Shown here piece after piece: positions 17,803-57,957 of a stretch of 64,000 bases of DNA. A program made the translations under genes and the position numbers. Under the pieces are notes generated by a model, which was not told the origin of the DNA, ran no database searches, and was given only the letters and a program-made list of their open reading frames with translations. How positions within the stretch are numbered: the stretch's first letter is position 1; every line of letters starts with the position of its first letter. Origin of the DNA: Cliona cf. orientalis (lineage: Eukaryota; Porifera; Demospongiae; Clionaida; Clionaidae); assembly GCA_963930775.1 (NCBI GenBank), contig OZ005689.1:34271235-34335234 (forward strand), in the 5' to 3' direction.

Positions 17803-17952
17803 AATAGTTATTGACCAATCCCTCGCTTTGTATGCAGTATAGAAGCACTCATCCCTCGGGATTTGTGCTTGTATGCAGTATAGAAGCACTCATCCCTCGG
17901 GATTTGTGCTTCTATACTGCATACAAACCTTGGGAGTTGGTCAATAACTATT
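17803..17952. mobile_element. Hairpin element TAGTTATTGACCA with internal 41-bp duplication
   Basis: The ends AATAGTTATTGACCAA and TTGGTCAATAACTATT are inverted copies, and the arms pair through GTATGCAGTATAGAAGCAC. The left arm carries a perfect 41-bp tandem duplication (17830-17870 and 17871-17911), ending TCCCTCGGGATTTGTGCTT. The same family, without the duplication, is at 55382-55499. Confidence 0.75.
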
Positions 17953-18262
17953 ACTAAGAGACCAAAGGCCCTGGGCTGTAGCATTCCGAGCGCAGCGAGG
18001 GTGCTACTAAGGGCCTGAGGGTCTCTTAAAAAGCGTAGAGACCATTGGATGAGGTCTCTAACTGATTTAGAATATAGCAACTGTAACCATGACATTAAGC
18101 CTGGGGACTAGGCTACTGTTGCACTGTGCATCTTTCTTTGCCCTTGGCAGCCCAATAATAGACCTACCTCTCTAAGAGGTCTATAAGTGAATTGAGAGGT
18201 CTCTAAGTGAAATAATGGACCTCCAATTGACCAATCAGATTGCTGTATTTGTTACAACTATA
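17953..18262 (-). mobile_element. TAGTTAGAGAC-family copy: right arm plus CCAAT-containing body
   Basis: AAGAGACC...GGCTGTAGCATTCCGAGCGCA...GGGTGCTACTAAGGGCCTGA...GCGTAGAGACCATTGGA...GGTCTCTAACT is the hairpin seen whole at 55130-55273. It is followed by GATTTAGAATATAGCAACTG, a middle with AATAGACCT blocks, and the conserved end GACCAATCAGATTGCTGTAT then TTGTTACAACTATATTCTAA. CCAATCAG is a textbook NF-Y/CCAAT-box core. Confidence 0.65.
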
Positions 18263-18558: not shown

Positions 18559-18935
18559 ACAAGTATAGAAACGATTGAATAAAATTGAAGAATAAAGTAG
18601 GGGGTGGCAGGATCAAAAAGTACAAGAACAAGAGATAATCGCATCTATTATACATTCTACGCTTGCTTTTCTCGACTATTGTGCACCTATTAATTATGGT
18701 TGACGTGTTTGTTGAGCGCGGTACGTGGGAGACATTCATGCAGGTTGTTCCCTAGTTGTCGCGATGGTTCGGGTTTATCAGTTTGATTCAACCGCATTAT
18801 TACTGGTTATTTTTGCACCCCTCAAAAAGCAAGCGTAAGGATGTATAGTAGATGTGATTATCTTTTGTTTGTGTACTTTTTGATCCTGCCATCCCTACTT
18901 CATTCTTCAATTTTATTCAATTGTTTATGTACTTG
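18559..18935. mobile_element. Element with about 110-bp terminal inverted repeats
   Basis: Left arm 18559-18677 (ACAAGTATAGAAACGATTGA, AATAAAATTGAAGAATAAAG, GGCAGGATCAAAAAGTAC) pairs with 18825-18935 reversed. The spacer is about 145 bp and has no ORF of note. A single-arm relative lies at 41079-41210 (TTGAATAAAATCGAAGGGTG, GTAGGGATGGCAG). The shared AAGTAGGGATGGCA segment also occurs at the edge of another repeat family (19.87, 39.63 and 63.74 kb). Confidence 0.7.
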
Positions 18936-19454
18936 TTTCTGTTCTTTTGCACTTAGTGTAATTTATCAATGCCATCTTACATGGTTTGCTCATTAAGTGG
19001 AAGATGGGAGGTGCGCAAAATTCTTTGCCACGCCCCTCATTAACTTGCTTTCATAATAATATTATTATTATGACGATGAACAGGATATATTATGACAAAG
19101 AAGGCTGTTTTAGGCGGCCCAAGTAGTGATGAGACTTTTCCGCTTAGGGAGAAAACCAAATTTCAAGTTTTACTGTTGGCAGCACCGGCATAATATTTAT
19201 GATCAGGACGTTTAATACCGCTGCTCGAGCCTTGCGCCTTCGCTGTATGATGATATGATATCTATGATCAATCCAGCGTAGCAAAAATGCTGCAAGCGCT
19301 AGCGAGTAGCTCGCCTATGCCTAGCACCTTACCGCTCCTCGAGCCTTGAACCTTCATATCCACGATCTGTCCAGCGTGCCGTTGCACGCGCTAGTGATAT
19401 ACGAGCGAGCTAGCTCGCCTAGGCCTACATAGGCGCCTAGGGCCAGGCGCTGTC

Positions 19455-25055: not shown

Positions 25056-25303
25056 TTAAGGTACCATTTAATTGCGTGGGCGTGAGCGTCAGGAATGGCT
25101 AATTCAATTAGCGAATCGTGAAGGGGCGTGGCCGAAGAGGCCATACGAGTGCTTTTTGTCGAAGGTGGGCGTGTCCAGAATCGGCCAGGGATGATTATGC
25201 GCGTGTAATTAGCGACCGGAAGTGGCCCCTGAAGAAAAGGCCGGTAATTGCCCACATCAAAGCAAGATCAAAGCATTCTTTCTTAACTATTAACCGCAAC
25301 GAC

Positions 25304-25334
<31 letters not shown>

Positions 25335-26078
25335 TATTAGGCCTAATTAAGCATGTGGGCGTGTTCCTGGCACTGTGTGGAGTGTGTGCGTGTGCGTTAA
25401 TGCAGGTTTTATTGCTTCCGATTGGGCGTGGCTTCACGGGCCAGTGCTTGGACATCGGCGCCTGGGACTTGGCCTCGGCGATAGGTGGGCGTGTCCCGGA
25501 AGCGGTGGTGACCTTTGAACCCCGCGAGGAGGCTTTAGGGGCGTGGCAGGAGGTCAAAGGTGAGGCCATGTCTGTTAATGAGGCACTGTACGGCGGTGCG
25601 ATCGAGGGGCCCGTACGGCTGGACGGAAGCCGACGATGGTTTGAAGCGGATGTGGTTGCGATGACGTGTTGTTACTCCGCCCACACAGGAAATGAGGTGA
25701 GCTCTTGCGTGGGCGGTGTGGCAGAACGGCCTCCAAGTGTTTGTGTGTGTTTTGGCCTTGAGGAAGCTGTGTGTTTTAATTGGGATTGATTGTGGGCTTC
25801 CGGTGGACATCCGGTGGTTAGTAGGCACTTGATTGAGAATGGTGGTCCTTGGGGAACAGGGTGGGGCTGTTTTGGGCGTGGCCTGGCCCCTCCCTTCCGG
25901 CTCGGCTTCCGGTCCATGGAGGATATTAAATGAACACTTCCGGCTCTAGCAGCCACACCCCTGAGACCTGTGCAATTAAAAGGGCGTGGTTACACAACAT
26001 GCACCTCACTAATGACTTTGATGTGGTTTAGGTGTCATATCCCCCACCTCACGCCCACGCAATTTAATGGTACCTTAA
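25056..26078 (+). mobile_element. TTAA-flanked DNA element, 1.0 kb (twin copy 1)
   Basis: TTAA (25056-25059) precedes GGTACCATTTAATTGCGTGG, and the reverse complement CCACGCAATTTAATGGTACC ends at 26074, followed by TTAA (26075-26078). The terminal repeats are about 27 bp and perfect. TTAA duplication is typical of piggyBac and Kolobok superfamilies; the GGTACC end is not the usual CCC of piggyBac, so I leave the superfamily open. The element is much richer in G+C than its surroundings and carries about nine GGGCGTG boxes in the same orientation. A 27-nt A-tract lies at 25304-25331. A 223-codon open frame (25118-25789) runs through the A-tract as poly-Lys but is broken in the twin, so I do not call it a gene. 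Confidence 0.8.
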
Positions 26079-26162: not shown

Positions 26163-26409
26163 TTAAGGTACCATTTAATTGCGTGGGCGTGAGCGTCAGG
26201 AATGGCTAATTCAATTAGCGAATCGTGAAGGGGCGTGGCCGAAGAGGCCATACGAGTGCTTTTTGTCGAAGGTGGGCGTGTCCAGAATCGGCCAGGGATG
26301 ATTATGCGCGTGTAATTAGCGACCGGAAGTGGCCCCTGAAGAAAAGGCCGGTAATTGCCCACATCAAAGCAAGATCAAAGCATTCTTTCTTAACTATTAA
26401 CCGCAACGA

Positions 26410-26443
<34 letters not shown>

Positions 26444-27187
26444 TATTAGGCCTAATTAAGCATGTGGGCGTGTTCCTGGCACTGTGTGGAGTGTGTGCGT
26501 GTGCGTTAATGCAGGTTTTATTGCTTCCGATTGGGCGTGGCTTCATGGGCCAGTGCTTGGACATCGGCGCCTGGGACTTGGCCTCGGCGATAGGTGGGCG
26601 TGTCCCGGAAGCGGTGGTGACCTTTGAACCCCGCGAGGAGGCTTTGGGGGCGTGGCAGGAGGTCAAAGGTGAGGCCATGTCTGTTAATGAGGCACTGTAC
26701 GGCGGTGCGATCGAGGGGCCCGTACGGCTGGACGGAAGCCGACGATGGTTTGAAGCGGATGTGGTTGCGATGACGTGTTGTTACTCCGCCCACACAGGAA
26801 ATGAGGTGAGCTCTTGCGTGGGCGGTGTGGCAGAACGGCCTCCAAGTGTTTGTGTGTGTTTTGGCCTTGAGGAAGCTGTGTGTTTTAATTGGGATTGATT
26901 GTGGGCTTCCGGTGGACATCCGGTGGTTAGTAGGCACTTGATTGAGAATGGTGGTCCTTGGGGAACAGGGTGGGGCTGTTTTGGGCGTGGCCTGGCCCCT
27001 CCCTTCCGGCTCGGCTTCCGGTCCATGGAGGATATTAAATGAACACTTCCGGCTCTAGCAGCCACACCCCTGAGACCTGTGCAATTAAAAGGGCGTGGTT
27101 ACACAACATGCACCTCACTAATGACTTTGATGTGGTTTAGGTGTCATATCCCCCACCTCACGCCCACGCAATTTAATGGTACCTTAA
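26163..27187 (+). mobile_element. TTAA-flanked DNA element, 1.0 kb (twin copy 2)
   Basis: Same orientation and ends as copy 1 (TTAA at 26163-26166 and 27184-27187). I found only a few differences over 1 kb: C/T at 25437 versus 26546, A/G in CTTT(A/G)GGGG, and a changed start and length of the A-tract. This implies very recent duplication or transposition. The 144-codon frame 26464-26898 (starting MGVFLALCGVCACALMQVLL, signal-like) is shared, but its upstream extension is not. Confidence 0.8.
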
Positions 27188-29302: not shown

Positions 29303-29416
29303 AACTAGGCATAACGTGTACTCGGGATGCATGGCATTTATTGCACTCGGCCCTCAGGCAGCTTCGTGCTTCAGTGCAATCAATGCCATACATCCCTCGC
29401 ACCCGTGTTATAACTA
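29303..29416. mobile_element. Hairpin element, TAGTTATAACACGGG type
   Basis: Right terminus reversed reads TAGTTATAACACGGGTGCGA and the left arm reads GGCATAACGTGTACTCGGGA. Pairing continues through TGCATGGCATTTATTGCACT, with loop CGGCCCTCAGGCAGCTTCGT. Its terminus resembles that of the hairpin at 42643-42786 (TAGTTATTACACGGGCTCGA). Confidence 0.65.
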
Positions 29417-33138: not shown

Positions 33139-36100
33139 GAGGATAGTCCTTGCTGTGATGAACAATTTTCATCAGAATTGGATGAATCATTTGCTACTGT
33201 GTCTGCGGATGATTCATTGTATATTCCTACTCCGGATCAGGTAGTTAGGAAGAAATTACTGAATAGTACATGTACGGGTATTCCTTTGAAAGTGTGCTTC
33301 ATGGACCTATCCCAATTAGACTCATTTGTGAAGCAACTTAATCAGATACGTGCCTGTACCACACCCAGCTGTAAGGGTATCCTTGTTCCAGAACATGTGA
33401 GGAGTGCTGGCCTTGGAGGTGCTATTTCTATAAAATACACATGTAATGGTTGTGTTTGTAAGACAGCCACATTTGAAACATGCACTAAGTTTGAGCTTGG
33501 CAGAAGCTGTGATATTAGCACTGCTGTTCAGGTGGCTTTTATTGTTGCCGGTTGCACCCACATGACCTATTACAAGGTACTGAAACATGTACTTGGAATC
33601 GATGCTGTTTCATGGCCCACATTTCAATCAACCATAGAGAAAATGTATCCTGTAGTGAAAATGATGGTTGATCGAATGTGTGATGAAGCAAAGCTGGAAA
33701 TGAAATCCATGGATTAAAGGGAACTTGGTTCATGGAGTCGTGCTGTAACATCAGCAGATGGCACGTGGATGACTAGAGGTCATCACAGCAAGAATGCTAC
33801 TTTTAGTATTCGCAATTACTACAATGGAGCTCTTCTTTACCGCAAGCATCTTTGCCAGAAAGGCAGGGATAGAGTAATTAAAGAAGAGCTGTACCAAGGG
33901 ACCTCTAAAGGTGCAGAAGGGTACGCAGCCCGCCTGACTTTCAAACAAGCCAAAGAGGAGGGCATGAACATAGCTGTTCAGTGGCAGGATGCTGATTCCT
34001 CTTCTGCCAATGCAGTGACAGACCACTTCCCCAATGCTGAGGTGATGATATGTGCTGGACACGCTGCACGGGCACACAAAAAGCGTCTTGAAAACTTTGC
34101 AGTAAAGAAAAGTTTTAGTGCCAGATTGAAGCGGGTTTACCGTGAGCGATTTCCTCTTGTGGATGAAGTGGTTTGTCATTGTAAGAGGCACCAAGCTGGC
34201 TGTGGTTGCCTGTCAAAGGGATTTATTGAGAGAGCACGAAATAACTTCTCCTTGATCCTGTCCATGAGTGAGTCAGCTGAGGAGTTTGCTGACAAGGCTA
34301 AGGCATTGCCACGACATGCTCGTGATGAGCACACATGGGATGGAGGAATGTGTGACTTTCATTCATTGCGTGTTTGTAGTTGTGGCAAGTGTGAGGACAA
34401 TGAGTGGCTTCAGTGCCAAGGTAAAGATTATCACACCAGGTGTTCACTTTCTTGTCCTTTCCATGCTCTTGCTTATGAAATAGAGTGCCATGATAGAGCA
34501 TCAGTGTCTAAACAGCTTATCCATCCCATTTTTAAAAAGGGTCACTCCAACTGGTTGGAAGCTTCTCATACTGTCTTCATTCGGTTTAGAGCAAAGCATA
34601 TCCACTTGGAGAGGCTTCACTATGTAGTATCAACGGAGCTTGCATTGCTTCAGTCAAACATGACCTACATGTACCAGAGGCGTGGACCGCAGTATCACTG
34701 GGTGATTGAGCTGTTTAGGCACATGAAGCTACCTGTCTTTGATGGTGTTCATCAGGCACTGGAAGAATTCAATAAAGCCAGGAAGCAAGTGCCGGAAAGT
34801 CGACAAACTGAGAAGTTTAGGAAAAGAAGAATACAGTTGAAAGTGGAAAGAACCAAGGATGCTCAGCGCCGTAAGGCGTGGTCGTACAAACACGGCCATG
34901 ACACTTATGGTGATCATGATAGTGGTGACGATGAAGATGATCTTGAGCTTAAACCTAAGGTATCAAGGAAAAAAGGTTCAGCTGGTGGGAAGTGCAAAGC
35001 TTGTGGATCTACTACTCACCTGCGCTCTAACCACAACGATTGCCCGTTCAATAAGCAGTTAAAAAATAAGTCGTCCCACCATGAAGATGACACGAAGTCA
35101 GCAAACATTGATACATTATCTGATGAAGAATTCTCCACTGATGACTTCATACCTTCATCTGACAGTGATTGCTGTTTTGAAGATAATATCTTCACTGGTG
35201 ACCTGTGTACCTGTGGTGCTGGTGGCAGGGCACACAAGAAAGACTGTCCCATGAGCTCCAGGAATCGCTACCACACTGGTCGTGTCCTCTTCCCTAGTGG
35301 TCCTTCTGCTGATCCTATTCCACCACCTACTGACACTGCTGGTGGATCTGATGTTATTGGCACTAACCCAAGCTCAAATGTGCTTGGTAAGAGAGAAATT
35401 GTCAGTGGAGACCAACTCCCCTCTGCTAAAAAGCAGAGGTCTAGTACTTCCTATAAGGTTGGAGATAAAGTATGTGTTCATACTGACAGGTTGGATAAAC
35501 ACCATGTTCCTTGCCGTGTGGTCCTTGTAGTGGGTAAAAAGTACCAGCTTTACTGCCACAAGGGTGTACTCAACCGTAGCTATGTCATGCAGGAATTAAG
35601 CACGTGCAAGAGTGACTGGTCTTTGTCGCTGGAAGGTTGGAGAACTGGTGCCAAAGTCTCACTTCAAGACGTTGCCAGTGACCCCAACTGTTTAGAAAAA
35701 TGTGAGTGTGCTGTAGACAAAGTTAATAACACTGTCATAGACCTCACTCAGGATGATGATTCTGATGCAGTGGCTGCAAGTAGTAAGAATTGGCTGTGCA
35801 ATCCCCTGTACACTCTGACCTCGACCAACAGAGAGGAAGTACTGTCACCTTCAGGTTGGCTCTCTGACAGAGTTATTGAAGCTGCTCAGCTGCTCATTTT
35901 GCAACAATTTCCTCACGTATCTGGCTTACAAAATCCTATTTTTCAGCAAACTCTTACCTTTCAAGTTCATAGAGGAGAATTTGTACAGGTAATCAATGTT
36001 CGAAACAATCACTGGTGTGCTGTTTCTAACATTGGTTGTGGTGAAGGAGAAGTTAAAGTGTATGACAGCATGTACCCTTCTGTTTCCACTGGCACTCTAC

Positions 36101-36534
36101 ATGTAATTGCCAGTCTGATATTTAGCTCTGCCTCACAGTTGGTGGTCAAGATGATGGATGTTGGCAGACAGTCAAATGGCTCTGACTGTGGTGTGCTTGC
36201 TATAGCATTTGCATATGACATTTGCAGTGGATCAGATCCCTGCAAGGTTAAGTTCAATCACAAAGCCATTAGACAACACTTAGCCAACTGTCTTGAGAAG
36301 TGTAGCCTCTCACGATTTCCAATAGTTGGTGAGCGGAGGAGCACTGGTGTAAAGTCTACTCAGACAGTTGGCCTTCATTGCTCCTGTCGCTTGCCTGAGG
36401 AGAGAGGTGATAAAATGGCTGAGTGTGATGAATGTAAGATATGGTATCACCAACACTGTATGGACATTCCTGATGATGTGTTTGGTGATTCAGAGGTCCC
36501 TTGGAAATGCAAAGCATGTGAAGGCCATGATTAA
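33139..36534 (+). pseudogene. Mutator-type transposase fused to ULP1 protease, SIM and PHD finger; one in-frame stop
   Basis: An acceptor-like TTGCATTTTGTAG ends at 33138, and the frame is then open for about 1,131 codons apart from one TAA at 33715-33717. The N-terminal part has CTTPSCKG...CNGCVCKTATFETC zinc-type cysteines. SADGTW (near residue 205) and WQDADSSS match the SxDGxW and GDxDS-like blocks of Mutator-family DDE transposases, followed by a conserved GHAARAHKKRLE. The middle holds KCKACGSTTHLRSNHNDCP and CTCGAGGRAHKKDCP knuckle-like motifs and acidic linkers. VIDLTQDDDSD (35734 on) is a classical SUMO-interacting motif. The ULP1/C48 domain shows GWLSD, then His in NNHWC (36010), Asp in YDS (36064), and Gln-Cys in QSNGSDCG (Cys 36187), so the catalytic residues are present. 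The C-terminus (about 36376-36525) is a C4HC3 PHD finger. MULE-ULP1 fusions are known; the PHD and SIM make this one richer. The stop suggests inactivation, unless it is read through or is an assembly error. Confidence 0.75.
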
Positions 36535-41606: not shown

Positions 41607-41623
41607 CAGCATCTAAATAATAA

Positions 41624-41945
41624 TAGTTAGACACTGTTTAGGAGGTTTCTACGTGATTTAGAAGACCGAAGGGCTCTATGTAGAATCCTGAGCGAAGCAA
41701 GGGTTCTACGTACTGAGCCCTGAGGTCTTCTAAATTACGTAGAAACCGACTAAACAGTGTCTAACTAATTTAAATCCTAGCAACAATGCCCAAAAGCTTT
41801 GTATATAAATAATTGCTTAGCAATAAACTAGCCATAGGCAAACAAAATTTACCAATTTTTTATGGGGCTTACAAGGTATTTTATGAAGGATAGATACTAC
41901 AGTTTAACCAATCAGATCACTGTATTTGTTACAAGTAGGATCTGA
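41624..41945 (+). mobile_element. TAGTTAGACACTG hairpin plus CCAAT body, complete copy
   Basis: Hairpin 41624-41767: TAGTTAGACACTGTTTAGGA ... AACAGTGTCTAACTA, arms about 65 nt, tip CCTGAGCGAAGCAAGGGTTC. It is followed by a roughly 175-bp body with CCTAGCAACAATGCCC and TATTTTATGAAGGATAGATA, ending ACCAATCAGATCACTGTATT then TGTTACAAGTAGGATC. The same layout recurs at 54674-54953, 56568-56887 and 57583-57885. Confidence 0.75.
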
Positions 41946-42562: not shown

Positions 42563-42642
42563 GTAGACTTTATAATATAATTCAATTTTGTGATTTACCA
42601 GTATAATTAAGTAAGTGTACTTCCGAGTCTAACTGTATGTAT

Positions 42643-42786
42643 TAGTTATTACACGGGCTCGAGTGCCACACAGCAGATATTGGCACAGTAGTGACGTAAA
42701 GCACGAGGGCCGCAGGCCCGAGTGCTTTACGGAGCTACTGTGCCAATATCTGCCGTGTGGCACGAGAGAAGCCCGTGTAATAACTA
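42643..42786. mobile_element. Hairpin element TAGTTATTACACGGG, 144 bp
   Basis: TAGTTATTACACGGGCTCGA and its reverse complement (GCCCGTGTAATAACTA) bound arms of about 68 nt, through CAGATATTGGCACAGTAG and GTAAAGCACGAGGG. The tip is CCGCAGG. It is nearly perfectly self-complementary and is flanked outside by TTTGTTGCATAA. Confidence 0.8.
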
Positions 42787-43377
42787 ATTTGTTGCATAAA
42801 CAACTAGCGAAGGACCTCTTTCCATGCTGTGTGCCCCAGAGAGAGACTAGACTCCTCGGAAAAGCCTATCGTGCGGCCAGTTTACTCGGCCACGCTCTAA
42901 AAAGAACGGGCTGCTCGATTTCAAACTTACTTGGACCGAAGGCAGAGCTGCATTGTCTCCAAGATCAAGACCAAGTTACTACCGATCCATGAACAGGCAA
43001 ATGGCGAGGTATAGCTACGGTAGGCCTCGCTAGGTAGCTTGATTTTACCATGAGTGATTTAACATGAAAATTTATCACATGAAATATTCATGATTTACAG
43101 TATGTTACTGCAAGTTTCTCATACCAACCTGTTCACTGCTGCATTCCTGGAAGCCAGGTGAAGCTGGCACTAGTGCACACATGCATGGGGAGTTAGTAGT
43201 AGTATAAATTAGCAACCATAGTCCACATGCTAGCCCAAGTATTGAAGTTTATTATTCATTGCTTGGTGTTGCCTAGCAACCAATTACAAGTTCGTGAATA
43301 TCATTGTTTTATGCATACATGGTTTGATTCTGTATAATACTATACACAAATGATGACCTGTGTGGCCTTATAATATG

Positions 43378-46978: not shown

Positions 46979-47104
46979 GTTCGAGTTGATTTGATTTTTT
47001 GGTGCTCGTTGTTTTCTCGCACCAGATAGACGTCAGAACTACTCTATTGTGGACTATTTGAACGGCAGTTGGCGTGCTTACCTTCCTTTCAGGGTCAGAC
47101 AGCA

Positions 47105-48346
47105 ATGACCAGTCCTACGCACTCGGGAGCCGGGAGCGGCAATGAGAGCGATCAGGATGAGGTTAGTGCGAGTGTTTTAGCTAATTCCCTAATAGCCTCT
47201 AAAGAGGCCATGAATGTTTTGGGATCTGCACTAGCGGACCAGGTTGTTGGTGCCCTACAGGCCCAGGGCCTAGTCCCCTCTCAAGACCAGCTATTTGGCG
47301 GTCAGCCCGCCATGCAGCCTCGTGGTCATCCATATCACATGATGGGGCGGGGCTTCGGTGGCCCGATCCCCGCGCATGCTCAAATGCAGCAACCCGGGTA
47401 TGGTATGGCACCTTTCCTCCCTTCCCCAGATCAGTATGCCTGGTCAGGCCCTCATCAAGGGCAGTTTGCTAGGCCAAATCCCTCAAGGTTTGGGTCCCCC
47501 TTTGATCGACTGGGGCCTCCTGATCAATCTCAACCTTCCACTAGTCGAGCTCTGAGATCAGACTCTGGTAGCTCATCATCAATGGCTGCTTCAGTTACAA
47601 GTGAAGCAGGGGAGGAGGAGGGGGAGGGGGAAGATGGGGATACACTATCCCTGCATCCTGATTGGGACATTGAGTTAGAGCCAGGCCAAGGTTCAATCGA
47701 TGAAGGCCTAAAATCCTTTGTCAAGCAGTGTGTTCAGTCACCGCTTACAAATCAACAAAGGAAGAAGGCTCTGGAGAAATATCCACTCCCAAACGTCTCG
47801 GAGCTCAGACCTCCTAAGCTAGATATGACGATGAAACTGCTGGTGGGCAAATCAGTTAGCTCACATGATGGGTGGTTGCAAAAAATGCAAGCCCTGTGTT
47901 TGGATGCTTATGCCCCTCTGCTAAACTTGCTAAATGAGCAAGCCTCAGGTATCCAACCTTCAGTGGAGGATACGTCTTCCGCCGTTAAATGCTCCTTGAA
48001 ATTGATGGGTAACATTTTTTCCCGCTTAACCAAGGAGAGACGTCGCAAGGTCCTGGTGGGCATCCATAAGGATTTAGCTCACATGGCTGACGAGGAATTT
48101 AAACAGGCGGATGTCCTCTTCGGTGAGGACGTAGTTGAGCGAGTTAAAAAGCGACATGATGCGCTAAAAACCTTGAGATCAGTCAAACAGCCTTTTCAGA
48201 AAGGCGGCACTCAAAAAAGGAACCGGTTTGGGCGTCGAGAAAACCAAGGGTTCACTCAACAAGGCCGGTACAAAACCGGACAGTTCAAAAAGCCAAGGTT
48301 CAGCTTCCAACAAAAAGGTCAATCAGCCCCACCCAAAAGGGATTAG
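47105..48346 (+). CDS. gag: DIRS Gag-like protein
   Basis: About 413 residues from the first in-frame ATG (MTSPTHSGAGSGNESDQDEV). The frame is open further upstream to 47069 without ATG. The first half is rich in Gly/Pro/Gln/Ser with an acidic stretch (EAGEEEGEGEDGD). The central conserved-looking region (WDIELEPGQGSIDEGLKSFV, QRKKALEKYPLPNVSELRPP) is typical of DIRS/Ngaro-type Gag. The C-terminus is very basic (KRNRFGRRENQGFTQQGRYK), likely nucleic-acid binding, without a CCHC knuckle. It ends in TAG at 48344. The next protein's frame is already open from 48127, overlapping the end of this gene in another phase. Presumed role: structural particle protein of the retrotransposon. Confidence 0.75.
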   Translation: MTSPTHSGAGSGNESDQDEVSASVLANSLIASKEAMNVLGSALADQVVGALQAQGLVPSQDQLFGGQPAMQPRGHPYHMMGRGFGGPIPAHAQMQQPGYGMAPFLPSPDQYAWSGPHQGQFARPNPSRFGSPFDRLGPPDQSQPSTSRALRSDSGSSSSMAASVTSEAGEEEGEGEDGDTLSLHPDWDIELEPGQGSIDEGLKSFVKQCVQSPLTNQQRKKALEKYPLPNVSELRPPKLDMTMKLLVGKSVSSHDGWLQKMQALCLDAYAPLLNLLNEQASGIQPSVEDTSSAVKCSLKLMGNIFSRLTKERRRKVLVGIHKDLAHMADEEFKQADVLFGEDVVERVKKRHDALKTLRSVKQPFQKGGTQKRNRFGRRENQGFTQQGRYKTGQFKKPRFSFQQKGQSAPPKRD

Positions 48347-48348
48347 GG

Positions 48349-50551
48349 GATCTCCCACCTTGCAAAAGCCTAAAGATAGACTCCGCCCCACCCTCAGAAG
48401 GTGCGGGCAATTTAATCAGCAATCAAATACAGGTAGTTACACACGATCCAGTCCCAGACTGGGTAAAGGCAACACTAAGACCTCTAAACCTACACACCCC
48501 TTGTTCCGTCCCATTTCCACCCATCTCAATTCCACATCCAGTTCTAGCGGGCAGACTCCGCCTCTTTGTGGAGAACTGGAAGAAACTAACTCAGGACACA
48601 TGGGTCCTGAATTGTATCCAGGGGCTCAAGATATCATTCAGTACGGATCCTTATCAGAGAGGAATCCCAAGATCTGTAATGAGCAAGGAGGAGGAGATTT
48701 TCATATCACAGGAGATCCAATCTCTCCTGGACAAAGGTGCAATAATCCCAGCATCATATCACCCCGAGAATTTTTTCTCCACAATTTTCACTGTCCCCAA
48801 AAAGGGTGGCGAACGCCGTCCTATAATAAACCTGAAAGGTTTGAACAGGTTTATCCCCCATATCCATTTCAAGATGGAGGGTATACAATCCCTGAGGGAT
48901 ATTGTTCTTCCGGGGGATTTCATGATCAAATTAGATCTCAAAGATGCCTATTTTTCAATCCCTATACATCCTTCCCATTGGAAGTTTTTTGAGTTTCAGG
49001 TGGATGCACAAGATCTTCCAGTTCACTTGTCTTCCTTTTGGTCTCTCCAGTGCTCCCCGAATATTTACAAAAGTAATGAAACCAGCTATTACTTACCTCA
49101 GATCGCTAGGAATACGGATGGTCGTCTATTTGGACGATATGCTAATTCTAGCTCAGACCAAAGAGGAGCTCCTCAAATGGAGATCAATGGTCCTGGATTT
49201 ATTAGAGAACCTGGGTTTCCTCATCAACTACAACAAGTCGGAATTGGAACCCACCCAAAGTCTAATATTTCTCGGTTTTCTAATCGACACAATGAATATG
49301 CAGATCAGACTGCCAAAAGACAAGATCAGTCAAGCAGTTCAGGAGGCTCAGAAGCTCCTGGAGGCTCAGCAAGCATCAGCGAGACAGCTAGCCCACCTGA
49401 TAGGAGTTTTCTCCTCAACCCTTCCAGCAATCCTCCCAGCCCCCCTCCATTACAGAGGCCTTCAGCTTCTGAAGCATCAAGCCCTCAAGAAAGGAGGGTA
49501 CGATGTGATTCTTCCTCTCTCTCAGGAAGCAAAAGACGACCTGTCATGGTGGATTCAGAATCTGAGTCTGGTAAATGGACAACCCCTGGTGAGAGATCAA
49601 CCATCCCTCCTGATAGAGACAGATGCATCTCTGATGGGTTGGGGGGCAGTATGTCAGGAGGAGCGGATAGGGGGTCCCTGGACGGTCGAGGAGAAAGCAC
49701 TCCACATAAACTGTCTGGAGCTGCTGGGAGCTACATATGCGATTCAAGCCTTTGCCAAGGACAAACGAGACCTGGTAGTCCATGTGCGCATGGACAACAC
49801 CACGGCTGTAGCGTATGTCAATCATATGGGAGGAACGAAATCATCGAGGCTCTGCGCCATGACAAAGAACCTGTGGGATTGGTGTCTTCAGCGACATTTA
49901 ATCATAGTTGCATCCCACATCCCAGGGAAGCAGAATGTGGGAGCAGACCTACTATCAAGGTCAATTGTGGACCGTCACGACTGGATGCTGGATCCAATGA
50001 TATTCCAAGCGATCAATTCTCTTTGGGGTCCTCTACAGGTGGACTTGTTTGCATCCAGGATTACCAAGCAGCTTCCACGTTTTTTCAGCTGGAAACCAGA
50101 CCCACTAGCAGAGGCAGTGGATGCATTCAAGCAGACATGGACAGGGTCTACGGGATATGCGAACCCTCCATGGGGGCTAATTGGTCGTTGTGTACAGTAC
50201 ACCCTTCAGCAGGGTGCAACGATAGTGCTAATCACCCCATTATGGCCAGGTCAGCCATGGTACCCAACTCTGTTTCCTCTCTTACTGGACAATCCGAGGC
50301 TACTTCCTCTGTCCCCAGACCTGCTAATGAGCCCTCAGGGTCTCAAAATTCCACTTCCAAAAAGAGCCAATCAGTTGGTCGCATGGTACATCTCAGGCAA
50401 TCGTACCAAAGTGCAGGAATCTCAGACGAGGCTACTGCCCTCCTGCTCGCCTCATGGAGAGGCTCAACAACAAAAAACTACAACTCTTCCTGGAGAGTAT
50501 GGGAGCAATGGTGCATTCAGTCGAGCACCAATCCAATTTCTCCCTCTTTGA
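48349..50551 (+). CDS. DIRS reverse transcriptase-RNase H-methyltransferase, with one frameshift
   Basis: The N-terminal part lies in one frame (open from 48127; no early ATG): AGRLRLFVENWKKLTQDTWV, RRPIINLKGLN and KLDLKDAYFSIPIHPSHWKF. At a run of six T (48985-48990) homology passes to the next frame: RWMHKIFQFTCLPFGLSSAP, YLDD catalytic pair at 49127-49138, RNase H blocks ETDASLMGWGAV, NCLELLGATYAIQAF, MDNTTAVAYVNHMGG and HIPGKQNVGADLLSR. Then comes the DIRS methyltransferase-like region VDLFASR, LPRFFSWKPDPLAEAVDAF and an NPPW motif at 50162. Stop is at 50549. Five instead of six T would keep one frame, so it is most simply a 1-nt insertion inactivating RT; recoding is possible but unproven. 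Function: copies the element's RNA. The methyltransferase role in DIRS elements is uncertain. Confidence 0.8.
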
Positions 50552-51414
50552 GTGATATTCTAAATTTTATAACTTTTCAATTTCACCAGGGAAAGCAATA
50601 TAGATCACTTAATTGCTACAGGTCAGCCCTGTCTTCAGTTTTAGCACCCATTGAGGGTTTTGACATTGGTCGCCATCCTCTAGTATGTAGAATACTAAAA
50701 GGAGCTTTTCAATTACGGCCACCAAAGGCAAAATACACCACATTTTGGTCTGTTGAGCAAGTACTCAGCCATTTGGCAAGCTGGGGAGATAATCAGTCTC
50801 TTCCCCTACAGAAGCTTACATGGAAGTTGGCTATGCTACTGGCGTTGTGTTCAGCGTCGCGAACCTCAGACCTGACTAAACTTTCCATTAGTCACCGGGT
50901 TTTCTCTAATGAGAAAGTAATTTTTTATCCCACTGGGTTGGCAAAGCAGAGCAGTCCAGATAATTTACCAACTCCTATTGAGTTTCATGCTTTCCCAGAC
51001 AATTTACTGTGTCCAGTAGAGTGTCTACAAAGATATGAAGCAATCACGACTTCCTTCAGAGTGAAGTCTGAGCAACAGCAACTCTTTTTAAGTATAAAGA
51101 AGCCACATTCTCCAGTGGTGTCCTCTTCTGTTGCTCGGTGGCTAAAATCAGTTTTAGCCTCTTCAGGGATTGATACATCCATTTTCTCAGCTCATTCCAC
51201 ACGTGGAGCATCAACTTCGGCTGCTTCACTAGCAGGAGTAACAACACAGCAGATTTTATCCACTGCTGATTGGTCTACAGCCAATGTTTTCAAGAAGTTT
51301 TATTTCAGAGATAGGCAGGTTCAGTCTCCTCGCCAGGGTTTTAATCTCTCTGTATTGTCAGCTTCAAAGTCACGTTGTGATAAGGAGCCTGAACCTTCTG
51401 ATATGCAATTGTAG
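50380..51414 (+). CDS. DIRS tyrosine recombinase
   Basis: Occupies the frame of the RT N-terminus and overlaps the end of RT by about 170 nt. The start is uncertain: MVHLRQSYQSAGISDEATAL is near the beginning, and the frame is open all the way from 48127. Core-binding part: LLASWRGSTTKNYNSSWRVW. Catalytic residues: Arg in SASRTSDLTKL (50860), His and Arg in AHSTRGASTS (51193 and 51202), Trp in STADWSTA, and nucleophile Tyr in KKFYFRD (51301). It ends TAG at 51412, inside the start of the ICR. It replaces an integrase, inserting the circular DNA copy by strand exchange. All expected catalytic residues are present, so this gene looks intact. Confidence 0.85.
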   Translation, partial: RMVHLRQSYQSAGISDEATALLLASWRGSTTKNYNSSWRVWEQWCIQSSTNPISPSLSDILNFITFQFHQGKQYRSLNCYRSALSSVLAPIEGFDIGRHPLVCRILKGAFQLRPPKAKYTTFWSVEQVLSHLASWGDNQSLPLQKLTWKLAMLLALCSASRTSDLTKLSISHRVFSNEKVIFYPTGLAKQSSPDNLPTPIEFHAFPDNLLCPVECLQRYEAITTSFRVKSEQQQLFLSIKKPHSPVVSSSVARWLKSVLASSGIDTSIFSAHSTRGASTSAASLAGVTTQQILSTADWSTANVFKKFYFRDRQVQSPRQGFNLSVLSASKSRCDKEPEPSDMQL

Positions 51415-53020: not shown

Positions 53021-53287
53021 AGGGATCATCACTGGATGAGTACTGCCTATCAGGACTATCTTGGTAATCATGCACAACTCCCTGACTTAGTAGTTTCAGA
53101 CACGAAGTCTTCAGCCATAGAGGTTTCTCTATAGTCACACACACACAATACTGTATCCTTACACAAACAGATAAATGTCAGATGATGCTTGCACTAGAAT
53201 AGACCCATCAGCATTGTTTTCCACAACCACCTCATCCAATATACATGTGGCTTGCTCTACATTTACAGACCTACAAAATAATATTAG

Positions 53288-53395
53288 TTGGTAGTTGCCT
53301 AGCAACCAAAGTTTTTATAGGCAATTTGCCGGCTATGGGAAGGGGTTGGGTCGTCATAAAGTAGGCCAATGATGAGCAGAGGTCAACTACCAACA
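53288..53395 (-). mobile_element. MITE with GTTGGTAG...CTACCAAC ends (inverted copy)
   Basis: GTTGGTAGTTGCCTAGCAAC opens it and GGTCAACTACCAAC closes it. The interior CGGCTATGGGAAGGGGTTGG is the reverse of 4982-5092. Confidence 0.65.
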
Positions 53396-53398
53396 AAA

Positions 53399-53469
53399 TA
53401 GTTATCTGCCAGTAGTTGGGGTGCATTCAACCATGCATCTCATGCACCCCAATTATTGGTAGATAACTA
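53399..53469. mobile_element. Hairpin element, TAGTTATCTG type, 71 bp
   Basis: TAGTTATCTGCCAGTAGTTG with GGGGTGCAT pairs with ATGCACCCCAATTATTGGTA then GATAACTA. It shares the terminal TAGTTATCTG(C/T)CAGT with 4634-4710 and lies, like that copy, close to a GTTGGTAG MITE. Confidence 0.7.
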
Positions 53470-53695
53470 TTACAAAAAAATTATGCATATAGTTTGATAG
53501 TACATACAGTATTCCAGTCCTTGTAGTACAGTACACTCAATGTGCTTTTGCTATTTTTCTATTCACAGTAAACCTGCTGTAATACTGAAGTCGTGCTATT
53601 TTGCTACCATTAATTCTAGGTGGCGTGCTATTTTGCTATTAATTTTTTGCTATTTTGTAGTTATGGTCTTAGAAGTTGTGCTAATTTGCTATTTA

Positions 53696-53910
53696 ACGTA
53701 TAGCCGGAAATATTGGCTGGCATTAAATTTGGCGGTTGAGCCCAAAATCGCTATTGCAAGAATATTGGCGGATTTAAATTTGGCGGTTCGGTACGGGATC
53801 GCAATACATGTATTATAAGAAATTTTGGCGGATCTTAATTTGGCGGTTGTAGTATAGACCGCCAAACCGCCAAAATTTAATTCCCCGCCAAATTTTCCGG
53901 CTATACGGTA
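53696..53910 (+). mobile_element. TACCGTATAGCCGGAAA MITE (copy 2)
   Basis: Begins ACGTATAGCCGGAAATATTG and ends TTTTCCGGCTATACGGTA. TTGGCGG modules occur in both arms, as in 14022-14250. It abuts directly on a TAGTTAGAGAC fragment at 53911. Confidence 0.8.
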
Positions 53911-54110
53911 ATAGTTAGAGACTGAGTCGACCATTGGACAAGGTCTCTAACTGATTTAGAATATAGCAACTGTAACCATGACATTTAGCCTGGGGACTAG
54001 GCTACTGTTGCACTGTGCTTCTTTCTTTGTCCATGGCAGCCCAATAATAGACCTCCTCTCTAAGAGGTCTATAAGTGAACTGAGAGGTCTCTAAGTGAAA
54101 TAATGTATGC
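53911..54110 (-). mobile_element. Deleted TAGTTAGAGAC-family copy
   Basis: TAGTTAGAGACTGAGTCGAC then CATTGGACAAGGTCTCTAACT shows a hairpin whose whole middle has been lost, followed by the family body (GATTTAGAATATAGCAACTG, GGGGACTAGGCTACTG, CTCTAAGAGGTCTATAAGTG). Confidence 0.6.
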
Positions 54111-54339
54111 ACGCGATTTTTGACAACGCTAGTCTGTATACTATATCTAAATTCAGTAACAATCATCGCTAGATAGCGACACAATGCCTTTAAACTACAA
54201 TACACTTTAAACTACAATACACTGTAGCCTGCAGTTGCTGCACTACTACTCCTTCCCTACAGTTGAGGGTTGGGGTCTGGAAATTAGGGTGGGACAATGT
54301 TCTATAGTAAAGGTGGTCTCATTGACATTGTGGCCACAC

Positions 54340-54600
54340 TAATAGTGGACTGACAATTTATGAATATTTGTGGAATTGCACAACTTGGGGTAAGTCTTTA
54401 ATCTGATAAAGCAACTACAAGGTGTTCAATGGAATAATATTGCTAGCTACCCACTATGCATGTGTACAGCTTCAAACTGAGAAGGGTAGAGGAAAAATAG
54501 AGGGATTTCTTTTCTGTTATGGAGCCCTGAAGGGAACTACATTAAAACTGAAAGGAGAGAGGGATGCTTTAGAGTGGGGCCTCAAGTGAATTATGCTTCA
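54340..54600 (+). repeat. Local segmental duplication unit, copy 1 of 3
   Basis: GTGGCCACACTAA(T/C)AGTGGA, ATATTTGTGGAATTGCACAA, CAACTACAAGGTGTT, GCTAGCTACCCACT and GTACAGCTTCAAACTGAGAA recur at 57131-57310 and 58151-58413. The third copy preserves GGAAAAATAGAGGGATTTCT, showing it is closest to this one over that part. Confidence 0.75.
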
Positions 54601-54673
54601 AGTCTGAGACCAAGACAGGAGAAGAAAAATAGGAAAAAGTGGTGTGGAGAGAGAGAGAGGGAGAAGCAAAACT

Positions 54674-54953
54674 TAGATCCTACTTATAACAAATACTGTG
54701 ATCTGATTGGTTAAACTGAAGTATCTATCCTTCATAGAAAATCATGTAAGTTCTGTAGAAAATCATGTAAATTTTCTTGCCTATGGTTAGGGTTGTTGCT
54801 AGGCAGCAGTTTATGTCTAGCTTTTGGGCATTGTTGCTAGGATCTAAACATGTTAGACACTGTTTAGTTGGTTTCTATGTGATTTAGCAGACCTCAGGGC
54901 TCAGTAGAACCCTCACTTCCCTCCGGATTTTACATAGAGACCTTCCAGTGCTC
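54674..54953 (+). mobile_element. CCAAT body plus damaged TTAGACACTG hairpin
   Basis: TAGATCCTACTTATAACAAA, TACTGTGATCTGATTGGTTA (reverse CCAAT) and GTTGTTGCTAGGCAGCAG lead into GTTAGACACTGTTTAGTTGG. The hairpin's right arm is lost after ACATAGAGACCTTCC. It parallels 56568-56887, which is intact. Confidence 0.65.
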
Positions 54954-55129
54954 CAAATAATTTTTGAAAGTGCAAGGACACAATGTCCTTCCATATCAAG
55001 AATGGACTGACATCCACAATAAATGATCAGACTAACTGACAGTCACTTTTTTCAGGGTGGCTTATCAAAGTCCTCACTAGAGCTGGAAGTACCAGCGTCT
55101 GTCTCTTCAGAACTTCTCTTTCTATATAA

Positions 55130-55380
55130 TAGTTAGAGACCGAGTCCAAGGTCTCTACGCATTTTAAGAGACCCGAAGGCCCGAGGCTGTAGCATCCCGA
55201 GCGAAGTGAGGGTGCTACTAAGGGCCTGAGGGTCTCTTAAAAGCGTAGAGACCATTGGACGAGGTCTCTAACTGATTTAGAATATAGCAACTGTACTTGT
55301 GGTAGTTGACCTGAGGACTAGGCTACTGTTGCAATGTGCATCTTTCTTTGCCCTTGGCTATACTTGTAGGTCTCTATGTA
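55130..55380 (+). mobile_element. TAGTTAGAGAC hairpin, complete, plus body
   Basis: Hairpin 55130-55273: left TAGTTAGAGACCGAGTCCAA, right GGACGAGGTCTCTAACT. The arms pair through CTCTACGC(A)TTTTAAGAGACC and the tip is CATCCCGAGCGAAGTGAGGG. The body begins GATTTAGAATATAGCAACTG. It is cut by the next hairpin at 55382. Confidence 0.75.
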
Positions 55381-55381
55381 A

Positions 55382-55499
55382 TAGTTATTGACCAACTCCC
55401 GAGGTTTGTATGCAGTATAGAAGCACAAATCCCGAGGGCAAAGCCCGAGGGATGAGTGCTTCTATACTGCATACAAAACGAGGGATTGATCAATAACTA
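55382..55499. mobile_element. TAGTTATTGACCA hairpin, 118 bp
   Basis: TAGTTATTGACCAACTCCCG and its counterpart GGGATTGATCAATAACTA. Arms include GTATGCAGTATAGAAGCAC, and the tip is CCCGAGGGCAAAGCCCGAGG. It is followed by ATTTTCTAGCCCATTGTTTC, the same flank as (reversed) beside 17803-17952, so this flank belongs to the element. Confidence 0.8.
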
Positions 55500-55554
55500 C
55501 GTATTTTCTAGCCCATTGTTTCCATGGATACAATAAACATGTTTTTTGCCCAAA

Positions 55555-55689
55555 CAGTTATTACCCAAGAAATGATGCAACATGGATTATGTTGCTCAAG
55601 GGCTAGATGTTGTCATGAGGGCATAGCGGAGTGAAACATCAGCCCCAGGGCAACTAACCCATGTTGCATCATTTCTTGGGTAATAACTG
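55555..55689. mobile_element. CAGTTATTACCCAAG hairpin, 135 bp
   Basis: CAGTTATTACCCAAGAAATG and CATTTCTTGGGTAATAACTG are perfect terminal inverted copies, continuing ATGCAACATGG. The tip region has CATGAGGGCATAGCGGAGTG. It sits inside the flank of the preceding element, splitting it (continuation at about 55700-55895). Confidence 0.8.
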
Positions 55690-55699
55690 ACTTGTTGTA

Positions 55700-56261
55700 T
55701 TTCCCTTCTGCCAAAAACATGAGGGCATTTCAACCTTATTTCTATAGGAATGACTGCATTTTACCCTTGGGCAAAATATCGGAATGAGTCGTGAGTATAC
55801 AACAAATGGACATGAGCCCTACAAGGAGGGACTGTATCACATATACAGTACACCTTGTATACCTTAGTAACCACATAGCAACGGGCTAGAAGAGAACTTG
55901 TAGGTCTCTATGAGAAATAGAGACCTCTGAGTGTCCAATCAGATCACAGTATTTGTTACAACTATATTCTAAACCTCACTAAAATATTTAATACTACCAC
56001 AGTACTGTACAAATGGAAAAGTCAACAGTTAGAGTGCATGCATACAATCAAACCTCATAAATACTGTACACTTGGCAGTAGTCTGCATGCATACAATCAG
56101 GTGCCTTAAAGCCTCACATATACTGTACATGTGGCAATAGTCTGCACTAGAGTCCAGTATAGTGCAGTGCAGGCATATATACAATCAGGTGAGAGTTAAT
56201 TTGACAGGACATTATGTCAGCCTAAGTTGATAATGGTCTGACATAGTTTAAAATTGACTGA
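55700..56261. other. Flank/body DNA of hairpin-type elements
   Basis: 55810-55893 (GGACATGAGCCCTACAAGGA ... GCAACGGGCTAG) is the reverse of 17641-17705. 55944-55975 carries CCAATCAGATCACAGTATTT then GTTACAACTATATTCTAA, the conserved body end. The rest has CATGCATACAATCA(A/G)(A/G)-type short direct repeats (56036, 56089). Confidence 0.55.
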
Positions 56262-56298
56262 AAATCACCTAGAAACCTCCTAAACAGTGTCTAACTAT
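56262..56298. mobile_element. Right-arm remnant of a TAGTTAGACACTG hairpin
   Basis: ATCACCTAGAAACCTCCTAA then ACAGTGTCTAACTATTA equals the right end of the complete hairpins at 56887 and 57885. The left arm is missing. Confidence 0.6.
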
Positions 56299-56567
56299 TA
56301 TATAGAAAATTGTACATACCAATGTAGCCAAGGGTTCAAAAAAGACTGCTGGCCATCCTACAGCATTTTTAGTAGGCAGCAAAATTTACAGTAAAAACTG
56401 ATGGCTGCGTTAAAAGGGGAACATTCATATGATTTATACTGGAAGGCCAGTCTGCGAAGTCATCCCAGTTCAAACATGCACACAATAATGACATTATTTC
56501 GTGGATCTACATGTACATGTACATGTACCTTCAGCCGATAGTGGCTTATCCACAAAAAATAGCGAAA

Positions 56568-56887
56568 ATTAGATCCTACTTGTAACAAATACTGTGATCT
56601 GATTGGTTAAACTGAAGTATCTATCCTTCATAGAAAATCATGTAAGCTCTGTAGAAAATCATGTAAATTTTCTTGCCTATGCTTAGGGTTGTTGCTAGGC
56701 AGCAGTTTATGTGTCTAGCTTTCGGGCATTGTTGCTAGGATCTAAACATGTTAGACACTGCTTAGTCCGTTTCTAGTGATTTAGAAGACCTCAGGGCTCA
56801 GTAGAAGCCTCACTTTGCTCAGGATTCTACACAGAGCCCTTTGGTCTTCTAAATCATGTAGAAGCCTCCTAAACAGTGTCTAACTAT
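56568..56887 (+). mobile_element. CCAAT body plus TTAGACACTG hairpin, complete
   Basis: Body from AGATCCTACTTGTAACAAAT, GTGATCTGATTGGTTAAACT, TATCCTTCATAGAAAATCAT. Hairpin 56750-56887 has ends TTAGACACTGCTTAGTCC and GCCTCCTAAACAGTGTCTAA and a tip with CCTCACTTTGCTCAGGATTC. Confidence 0.7.
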
Positions 56888-57036
56888 TATGTATTGCTAG
56901 AGCCAGAGGGCAAAACTTGTAGGTGACTATGAAAATCTTGTAGGTGACTATGAGAAGCTTGTAGGTGACTATGAATATAGATACCTGTCAGTAGCCAATC
57001 AAATTGCAGTATTCATTACAGCTATGATCTAACTGC
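56888..57036. repeat. Inverted partner of 57583-57747
   Basis: GAGCCAGAGGGCAAAACTTG, three TTGTAGGTGACTATGA repeats, CAGTAGCCAATCAAATTGCA and TAACTGCAGTTAGA are the reverse complement of 57583-57725. Together with the two hairpins, this makes a 1.1-kb mirrored block 56750-57885. Confidence 0.75.
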
Positions 57037-57060
57037 AGTTAGAGCTTAAGTTGTTAAAAA

Positions 57061-57310
57061 TTATCTCTCTCTCTCTCTCTCTCCCTCTCCTCTCTTTCTC
57101 TCTCCCTCCTTCCCTTTTTCTAACTTTGAAGTGGCCACACTAACAGTGGACAGACTAATTTACTAATATTTGTGGAGTTGCACAACTTTGGGTCAAGTCT
57201 TGGATCTGATAGCTCAGTCCAAAGGATACTCCAGCAACTACAAGGTGTTAAAAGTGAATAATATTGCTAGCTACCCACTGTGCCTGTGTACAGCTTCTAA
57301 CTGAGAAGGT
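57061..57310 (+). repeat. CT-rich tract and segmental duplication unit, copy 2
   Basis: CT microsatellite 57064-57115, ending CCCTCCTTCCCTTTTTCTAA, then GTGGCCACACTAACAGTGGA and the shared unit to about 57310. The same join (CT tract, CCCTCCTTCCC, GTGGCCAC) occurs at 58125-58160. Confidence 0.75.
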
Positions 57311-57469
57311 ATTTTGTTAACACACTTTACAAATAAAAACCCTGGAGTACAGCTGATGCCACGAGCGAAGGCTCGCCCTGCCTGATGATATCATCTTCCT
57401 AGTATTATTATGGTGTAGCCTGCAGTTGCTGTATGCAAGTAGCTATAGTGAAGTCACAACCAAAAACTA

Positions 57470-57582
57470 AAAAACAGAGCTACATATACCTAGCCCACAA
57501 AAATTTAATCAACGGTGGAACACTGGTATACATAGTAACAATACCAAGTACCTTAGAATATTTCCACCCACTCTAACTGCAG
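57470..57582 (+). repeat. Duplicated segment (also at 58668-58800)
   Basis: CACAACCAAAAACTAAAAAA, CAGAGCTACATATACCTAGC, AATTTAATCAACGGTGGAAC and ATTTCCACCCACTCTAACTG occur twice, with small indels. Confidence 0.75.
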
Positions 57583-57885
57583 TTAGATCATAGCTGTAAT
57601 GAATACTGCAATTTGATTGGCTACTGACAGGTATCTATATCTCATAGTCACCTACAAGCTTCTCATAGTCACCTACAAGATTTTCATAGTCACCTACAAG
57701 TTTTGCCCTCTGGCTCTTAGCAATACAAAACTATATGATCTAAACTTGTTAGACACTGTTTAGTTGGTTTCTATGTGATTTAGAAGACCTCAGGACTCTC
57801 ATAGAACCCTCGCTTCGCTCGGGATTCTATATAGAGTCCTTCGGTCTTCTAAATCACATAGAAACCTCCTAAACAGTGTCTAACT
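57583..57885 (+). mobile_element. CCAAT-type body plus TTAGACACTG hairpin
   Basis: Body: AGTTAGATCATAGCTGTAAT, GCAATTTGATTGGCTACTGA, three TCATAGTCACCTACAAG repeats. Hairpin 57748-57885: TTAGACACTGTTTAGTTGGT ... AACCTCCTAAACAGTGTCTA, tip CCCTCGCTTCGCTCGGGATT. The body differs from 41.8 and 56.6 kb but keeps the same CCAAT module and hairpin. Confidence 0.7.
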
Positions 57886-57957
57886 AATATTTAGAGCTTA
57901 AGTTGTTAAAAATTATCAAAAGTATATGTAGTACCTGCATACATGTACTTCACCCAA

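Follow-up and report, generated by a model that had tools for sequence, protein, structure and literature searches.

A stretch of 64,000 nucleotides (nt) from the genome of the sponge Cliona cf. orientalis (C1:34271235-34335234 of a 216.8-Mb assembly in 149 contigs; hereafter the window) carries a set of long, almost fully self-complementary hairpins. Based on a comparison of their copies across the genome, most of these hairpins appear to be the 3′ terminal palindromes of short non-autonomous transposon families with the plan of Helitron2/Helentron elements (HINE), in which the strand bearing GA dinucleotides would be folded and could be read by a Rep protein; we assign this reading a probability of roughly 0.64. 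A single strand in its folded form, probably the one with GA, would be the functional object, and the Rep proteins and helicases of the Helitrons of the same genome would probably act on it in trans. A preliminary description of the window had proposed a superfamily of stand-alone palindromic elements inserting at TA; the superfamily is real, but its boundaries and its target had been misread.

The hairpins named in that description are present at all 11 places. Ten appear in our list of palindromes, while the hairpin at 29303, which is degenerate and absent from that list, was recognized by arm alignment and by homology as a worn copy of a family shared with loci L012 and L027. In the window, 24 palindromes with a score of at least 16 (other kinds of hairpin included) were found, against none in three local shuffles, which excludes a chance origin. 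The hairpins share the termini GTTA...TAAC, as had been noted, but the bases preceding them are not always TA or CA (AT at 56750 and TT at 57748, both on the left side). Similarly, the common GC-rich tip persists among most hairpins but, by arm alignment, its CGAG/GGG type is absent from those at 4634 and 53397. The tip sequence CCGAGCGAAGCGAGGG has 492 exact copies in the genome, against 9 of the reversed pattern. Seven sequence-distinct hairpins had been counted, which is too many by homology, since 41624, 56750, 57748, and 55130 form one related group and 17803 and 55382 form one family.

Across the genome, a conserved body was found on one side of the hairpin in seven families (55382, A, B, C, 42641, 53397, and L034x); it had previously been overlooked, and the hairpins of these families are not stand-alone elements. 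Instead, each closes a short element of approximately 190-540 nt at its 3′ end. The shared plan comprises a 5′ TT with an 8-12 bp repeat, an inverted copy of this repeat directly before the hairpin, the hairpin itself, and a short 3′ end, which is TATTAC in 55382, C, and 53397, TAATAC in 42641, TATTAT in most copies of A and B, and TTATAT in L034x. The outer TATTAC on one side of the hairpin is the element's own 3′ end, while the other side is the element body. At the loci of the 55382 family, unique sequence lies beyond a near-constant TTAC on one side of the hairpin and the conserved body on the other, and the unit of approximately 310 nt begins with 5′ TTCTAGCCC, carries GGGCTAGAA immediately before the hairpin, and ends in TATTAC. 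The corresponding 5′ and internal inverted repeats are TTAGATCC and GGATCTAA in A, TTTAGAATATAG and CTATATTCTAAA in B, and TTGTTGTAT and ATACAACAA in C. The 42641 family carries TTGTTGCATGAA and TTCATGCAACAA, with the full 5′ end in one copy only (L052, 539 nt); the inverted pair of the 53397 family is TTGGTAGTTG and CAACTACCAA, and that of L034x is TTAGACTCTAG and CTAGAGCCTAA, with one mismatch.

The first-look candidates of the genome search with each hairpin numbered 1670 for A, 415 for L027, 274 for 55382, 258 for L034x, 132 for 4634, 52 for 42641, and 38 for C; the best 38-40 copies per family were scored, and a random 200 kb of the genome was sampled for survey. Among the best 40 of the 55382 family, those besides the window copy are 97-99% identical to it. 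For L034x, 21 of the best 40 scored copies, the query's own place counted, are identical to the query (100%, 141 nt), which indicates young copies and supports a shared mobilizing process. In the 42641 family, locus L060 (C3:11536460-11536706) is a perfect 247-nt palindrome consisting of a 42641-type hairpin with body sequence mirrored on either side, as from an inverted duplication at the hairpin through a template switch.

The insertion sites were resolved in a three-level nest at 55126-55973 of the window, all on the minus strand. A family B element (55126-55973, hairpin 55132-55272) is split by a 55382-type element (55378-55891, hairpin 55384-55497, with TATTAC ending at 55378), which in turn is split by a family C element (55553-55805, hairpin 55557-55687). 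The 3′ junction of the C element is deleted in the window, and both junctions of the C insertion are intact in L034 (CATGTCCAT|TTGTTG... and ...TATTAC|ATGTTTAC). Moreover, uninterrupted CATGTCCATATGTTTAC, the empty site for C, was found in 22 of 29 oriented 55382-family loci. Together with the intact junctions, this indicates that C inserted between T and A without duplication or loss. The empty site of the 55382-type insertion in B is represented by two B-like stretches of L034, which read across the joined flanks with no gap close to the junction (99 bases, 96%; 96 bases, 97%). Further element copies are stacked within L034, and some 5′ ends directly abut the TTAC of another element (window 55126-55973, L034, and L027).

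To describe the target, 30 loci of the 55382 family were fetched and 27 were used, including the window copy (L021) and L049, whose 3′ end is damaged; L044 (without a body anchor), L026 (5′ start not found), and L034 (5′ start outside the motif) were omitted. The first three 3′ bases are A in 18, T in 20, and A in 24 of these insertions, a leaning toward ATA. T|A stands at the junction in 11, the 5′ base is T in 15, the 3′ base is T in 5, and TNAT followed by A or T occurs at the junction in 4. In addition, the end motif TAACTATTACATA has 281 occurrences, against 40 for the reversed control.

These boundaries bear directly on the explanation, in line with the earlier suggestion of TA-target insertion, that the hairpins are palindromic miniature inverted-repeat transposable elements (MITEs) of a DDE transposon with TA as the target. 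MITEs that are palindromic throughout occur in other animals, and TA adjoins GTTA in several copies; however, the seven families have a one-sided body and asymmetric ends, and the comparison with empty sites at two insertions gave no duplication, which contradicts this explanation for the 55382 and C families. A stand-alone MITE with TA duplication was therefore rejected for the seven families, and we consider a MITE origin of this type highly improbable, while the 4634 and L027 families could still be palindromic MITEs inserting at TA. Common termini and empty sites showing precise insertion both exist, which is not what ordinary repeats lying head to head by chance would show.

The arm alignments show long stems interrupted by sites at which two bases on one arm fail to pair with two on the other (2 × 2 sites). 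Strand orientation was fixed from the 3′ end and the body, independent of the mismatches. In ten representatives, one per family (L004 for A and L049 for 55382) plus L064, a diverged relative of 42641, TC faces TC on the element strand, which bears TTAC, at 15 of 19 such sites, and GA accordingly faces GA on the complement. By comparison, 43 control palindromes from the window and L001-L020 (a set from which hairpins with GTTA...TAAC termini, the region around 29303, and one CT microsatellite were excluded) contain 24 sites of this kind, none of them TC/TC or GA/GA. The GA strand reads 5′-YGAR-3′ at 13 of the 15 TC/TC sites, a context favorable to sheared tandem G·A pairs in DNA. The 15 sites are not independent: by position, approximately 11 are distinct, in four lineages, with A, B, and L034x related to each other and 42641 related to L064. 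Among the family A copies of the window, 57748 has TT/TC, and 56750 lacks a 2 × 2 site at the outer position. Because TC exactly faces TC at 15 of 19 sites, independent double-strand binding motifs were rejected as the cause.

The hairpins of A, B, and L034x were aligned over 152 columns, and their structure was derived from these rows. Both sides change in 19 of 55 pairs (62 cells; shuffled mean, 18.1), and none of 500 shuffles, which ignore relatedness, reached either measure. Pairing amounts to 89% and falls to at most 45% when the partner is slid by 1 to 3 columns, a control that is partly circular because the structure comes from the same rows. At the site that lies between these covarying pairs, the 5′-arm TC is unchanged in all 13 rows; opposite it stands TC in 11 rows and TT in 2. 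Similarly, 8 of 64 pairs covary in the 42641 family (0 of 500 shuffles); alignment A2 took in 11 of 20 stretches and left out L052, L060-L062, and L066-L070. L064, which is approximately 75% identical to the 42641 family, retains the outer TC/TC site. Collectively, the stem covariation and the young copies support the earlier suggestion of a shared mobilizing process that keeps the ends and the tip type while the arms differ.

The apex of the GA strand is frequently a compact triloop. In A, B, and L034x (13 rows), the triloop is GAA in 8, AAA in 2, and GTA in 1, with 2 rows outside the search pattern; in the 42641 group (12), it is GCA in 7, ACA in 1, and CGC in 1, with 3 outside the pattern; and in 27 of the 30 fetched loci of the 55382 family, it is AAA in 26, with 1 outside. 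The L034 copy of C has GTA, which its window copy lacks, and the apices of L027, L012, and 53397 do not fit the triloop pattern. According to the passages of PMC6582339 consulted, d(GCGAAGC) forms a hairpin of extraordinary stability that contains a sheared G-A pair, and AAA triplets closed by sheared A·A pairs are named in the title of a reference cited by PMC5430850.

Stem covariation fits DNA and RNA alike, and the hairpin might be kept for the use of its RNA, for example as the precursor of small RNAs or as a structured tail. Motifs such as GA/GA tandems and short loops serve well in RNA too, where tandem GA is likewise stable. We regard this explanation as unlikely, because the hairpin lies at the transposition end in seven families and Rfam has no match anywhere in the 64-kb window. 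In another explanation, repair or conversion acting on a hairpin or cruciform intermediate preserves the complementarity of the arms, and the tandem GA mismatches survive only because they escape repair and have no function of their own. Long perfect arms in several lineages are consistent with such a process, and the perfect palindrome of L060, which includes the body, indicates that palindrome-making events occur. However, the YGAR context at 13 of 15 sites and the uniform polarity, with TC on the element strand at 15 of 15, are not readily explained in this way, and a change from a pair to GA/GA requires two adjacent changes; we therefore doubt that repair accounts for the mismatches.

Under the Helitron-type reading, the palindrome would be fully paired in the duplex state, and each strand could fold once the strands part. 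The folded element strand would then contain T·C mismatches, while its folded complement would contain tandem G·A pairs and a compact loop. Sheared G·A steps and the compact triloop would keep the GA strand helical, with true mismatches in the TC strand. Because the two folded strands would differ, a symmetric palindrome would gain a strand identity that a strand-specific Rep could use, and a Rep (HUH) protein might take the folded strand as an end or stop signal. By analogy with known single-strand systems, we tentatively propose, at somewhat less than even odds, that a rolling-circle group of eukaryotic transposons marks its 3′ end by a giant palindrome, that facing TC/TC (GA/GA) sites and a compact GNA- or AAA-type triloop confer strand identity, and that a Helitron-type Rep reads the folded strand. 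In a symmetric palindrome, both strands are expected to fold alike, yet evolution here keeps a two-letter asymmetry while neighboring pairs covary. Recognition of the 3′ end by Helitrons and stopping there are still poorly understood, and the facing dinucleotides offer a concrete and testable candidate code by which a eukaryotic system could recognize an end as a single strand. They also provide a simple signature, namely a terminal hairpin in which TC faces TC, for spotting elements that can be mistaken for simple MITEs.

The candidate enzymes are abundant in the same genome. At least 150 matches to Helitron-type Rep (PF14214), some of them in open frames of more than 2000 amino acids, and at least 148 to PIF1 were listed; examples of open Rep/helicase genes lie on C16 near 2.88 Mb, C17 near 5.87 Mb, and C7 near 6.63 Mb. 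These matches also bear on a further explanation, in which single-strand transposition is carried out by an IS200/IS605-type (Y1) or other HUH enzyme, such as that of a Replitron, in place of a Helitron Rep. The end hairpin and the absence of target duplication are consistent with transposition of single-stranded DNA in general. Nevertheless, the genome search for the IS200-type transposase Y1_Tnp returned 0 matches, Helitron Rep and PIF1 are abundant among the matches listed, and asymmetric inverted repeats are described as a Helitron2 trait in the passages of PMC5148889 consulted. Such an enzyme therefore seems quite improbable. As a separate observation, C1, which is much longer than C2 (14.8 Mb) and makes up 37.5 of the 216.8 Mb, holds 92 of the 150 listed Rep matches by a count made by eye, mostly at 15-36 Mb and many of them short or with stops; C1 may contain a low-recombination or sex-linked region.

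Several observations weigh against the Helitron-type reading. No Rep/helicase element was shown to bear the ends of a hairpin family, and the autonomous element with such ends that the preliminary description suggested was not found near the listed Rep and PIF1 matches. Judged by eye, the 10 kb that follow each listed Rep or PIF1 match contain, in the right orientation, none of the best 38-40 scored copies per family in seven families and, on C1 and C2, no TAACTATTACATA. Among the mismatch sites, the remaining four of the 19 are two TC/TT, one CA/AC, and one CA/CC, and the 4634 and 53397 hairpins lack any 2 × 2 site. The computed DNA energy of the GA strand is lower in 7 of 10 representatives, with small differences, and further pair types do not exceed the shuffles (282/500 for A/B/L034x and 425/500 for 42641). 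The three compared copies of the L027 family have only approximately 20 nt in common ahead of the hairpin, with no shared body, and no 5′ partner of this stretch was found in them. With respect to insertion, the target is neither the TT of Helentrons nor a strict A|T, and it does not clearly agree with the TTTT|T/C of Helitron2. The junction in B falls within a short tandem array, where L044 and L026 match the junction and differ nearby by one unit of approximately 20 nt, so that this case carries slightly less weight. At a third site, L046, five bases on the left side are absent from its paralogue. Collectively, the Helitron2/Helentron plan of the elements is supported, while actual membership in Helitron2/Helentron is not proved.

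Among the listed Rep and PIF1 matches, the four nearest cases of a possible autonomous partner were judged unconvincing. Two concern sequence upstream of a Rep match, where a complete 55382-type element lies at a distance of 5.8 kb (C2:12876868, L046) and, at another place, a 4634-type hairpin at 9.8 kb (C3:2431185). In the third case, an end motif precedes a PIF1 match by 3.8 kb (C1:33766119), and in the fourth, a 42641-type copy lies approximately 18.5 kb downstream of a Rep/helicase match in a consistent orientation (C1:34097208).

Besides the nest, the window holds further members of these families. On the plus strand, a diverged 55382-family element (17622-17954) ends in 3′ TATTAC and has a hairpin with an internal tandem duplication (17807-17948), and a 53397-family element (53284-53473) runs from 5′ TTAGTTGGTAGTTG through internal CAACTACCAACAA and the hairpin (53401-53467) to TATTAC. 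Family A is represented on this strand by a copy truncated within the hairpin (54673-54945), an element ending in TATTAT (56569-56890, hairpin 56750-56884), and an element of a subfamily with TTAGATCATA and TATGATCTAA (57583-57891, hairpin 57748-57884), and on the minus strand by an element at 41620-41944 (hairpin 41626-41765). The minus strand also carries a 5′ truncated 42641-family element with 3′ TAATAC (42639-43056, hairpin 42645-42784) and a relative of the 53397 family (4972-5090) with 5′ TTGTTGGTAGTTG, internal CAGCTACCAACAA, and then the start of AGTAGTTA, in which TG-rich sequence takes the place of the hairpin. The 4634 family, known from the hairpin alone, is a near-perfect 69-nt palindrome (4634-4710, no strand assigned), and the degenerate L027/L012-family hairpin lies at 29303-29416 on the plus strand; the similarity among copies of the latter family ends approximately 20 nt before the hairpin.

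Further features were also observed in the window. Another family of long palindromes, with ACAAGTATAAAA...TTTATACTTGT-like ends, occurs at 18559-18936 as well as in L006 (9276-9692) and L015 (777-1092), and a 264-bp palindrome with a score of 81 and purine-rich ends lies at 5481-5744. Long open frames at 33139-36534, the second with a PHD finger and an Ulp1 protease domain, resemble a KDZ-type transposase. A reverse transcriptase with a sub-threshold phage-integrase match lies at 47030-51414, a combination also seen in DIRS-type retrotransposons. Finally, a duplicated stretch (25195-25945 and 26397-27054) has near-identical peptides on both strands and a run of 28 A in each copy.

Compared with known systems, what a specialist would find unexpected is that long terminal palindromes carry a code of facing TC/TC sites. 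Among the papers listed from the open-access literature searched, none describes such mismatches in Helitron hairpins as far as titles and abstract beginnings show, and the phrase on tandem GA mismatches was not found; no paper on sponge Helitron hairpins came up, and the titles gave nothing on palindromic MITEs of this kind. Palindromic MITEs and foldback elements resemble the present elements in a hairpin part that is nearly wholly self-complementary, whereas in seven families the hairpin here is one end of an asymmetric element, and two insertions lack duplication. Canonical Helitron1 elements have a 5′ TC, a 3′ CTRR, and insertion at A/T, unlike the 5′ TT and TTAC-like 3′ end found here.

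The Helentron/HINE/DINE-1 group, as presented in the passages of PMC4067079 at hand, shares the 5′ subterminal repeat with an inverted counterpart close to the 3′ end, the 3′ palindrome, boundaries supported by empty sites, and the high copy number. In contrast, the 3′ palindromes of the mite HINE published there measure 5-10 bp, against 67-142 nt with TC/TC sites in the sponge, and the target is T-rich or TT there, while it leans toward T|ATA here. Helitron2 (FoHeli of Fusarium and relatives) likewise has hairpins and asymmetric terminal inverted repeats, the latter a trait of Helitron2; the 5′ hairpins of FoHeli1/2 carry GAA triloops, and the T|A leaning here (11 of 27 insertions, with TNAT followed by A or T in 4) resembles the TNAT|A reported for FoHeli1/2 (PMC5148889, in the passages used). 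However, FoHeli1/2 have short hairpins and termini of the type TCAG...ATTTT, and no tandem mismatch sites were seen in the passages on them.

Strand choice by folding has parallels outside Helitrons. In the excerpts of PMC3053210, integron attC sites are near-palindromes of which the integrase binds the bottom strand only and in which unpaired bases matter; they differ in the tyrosine recombinase and in extrahelical single bases, as opposed to the tandem GA here. Bacterial repetitive extragenic palindromic (REP) sequences are shorter (29-37 nt), carry a 5′ GTAG, and have an AA-GC mismatch that was only moderately selected in systematic evolution of ligands by exponential enrichment (SELEX), and TnpA-REP is a relative of IS200/IS605 transposases. 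Nevertheless, TnpA-REP provides the nearest parallel from experiments. According to the excerpts of PMC8266576 on this system, the REP hairpin contains a conserved mismatch of two bases, and TnpA-REP, an HUH enzyme, binds the REP strand in folded form but not the complementary strand; its activity is eliminated or severely affected when the mismatch is corrected.

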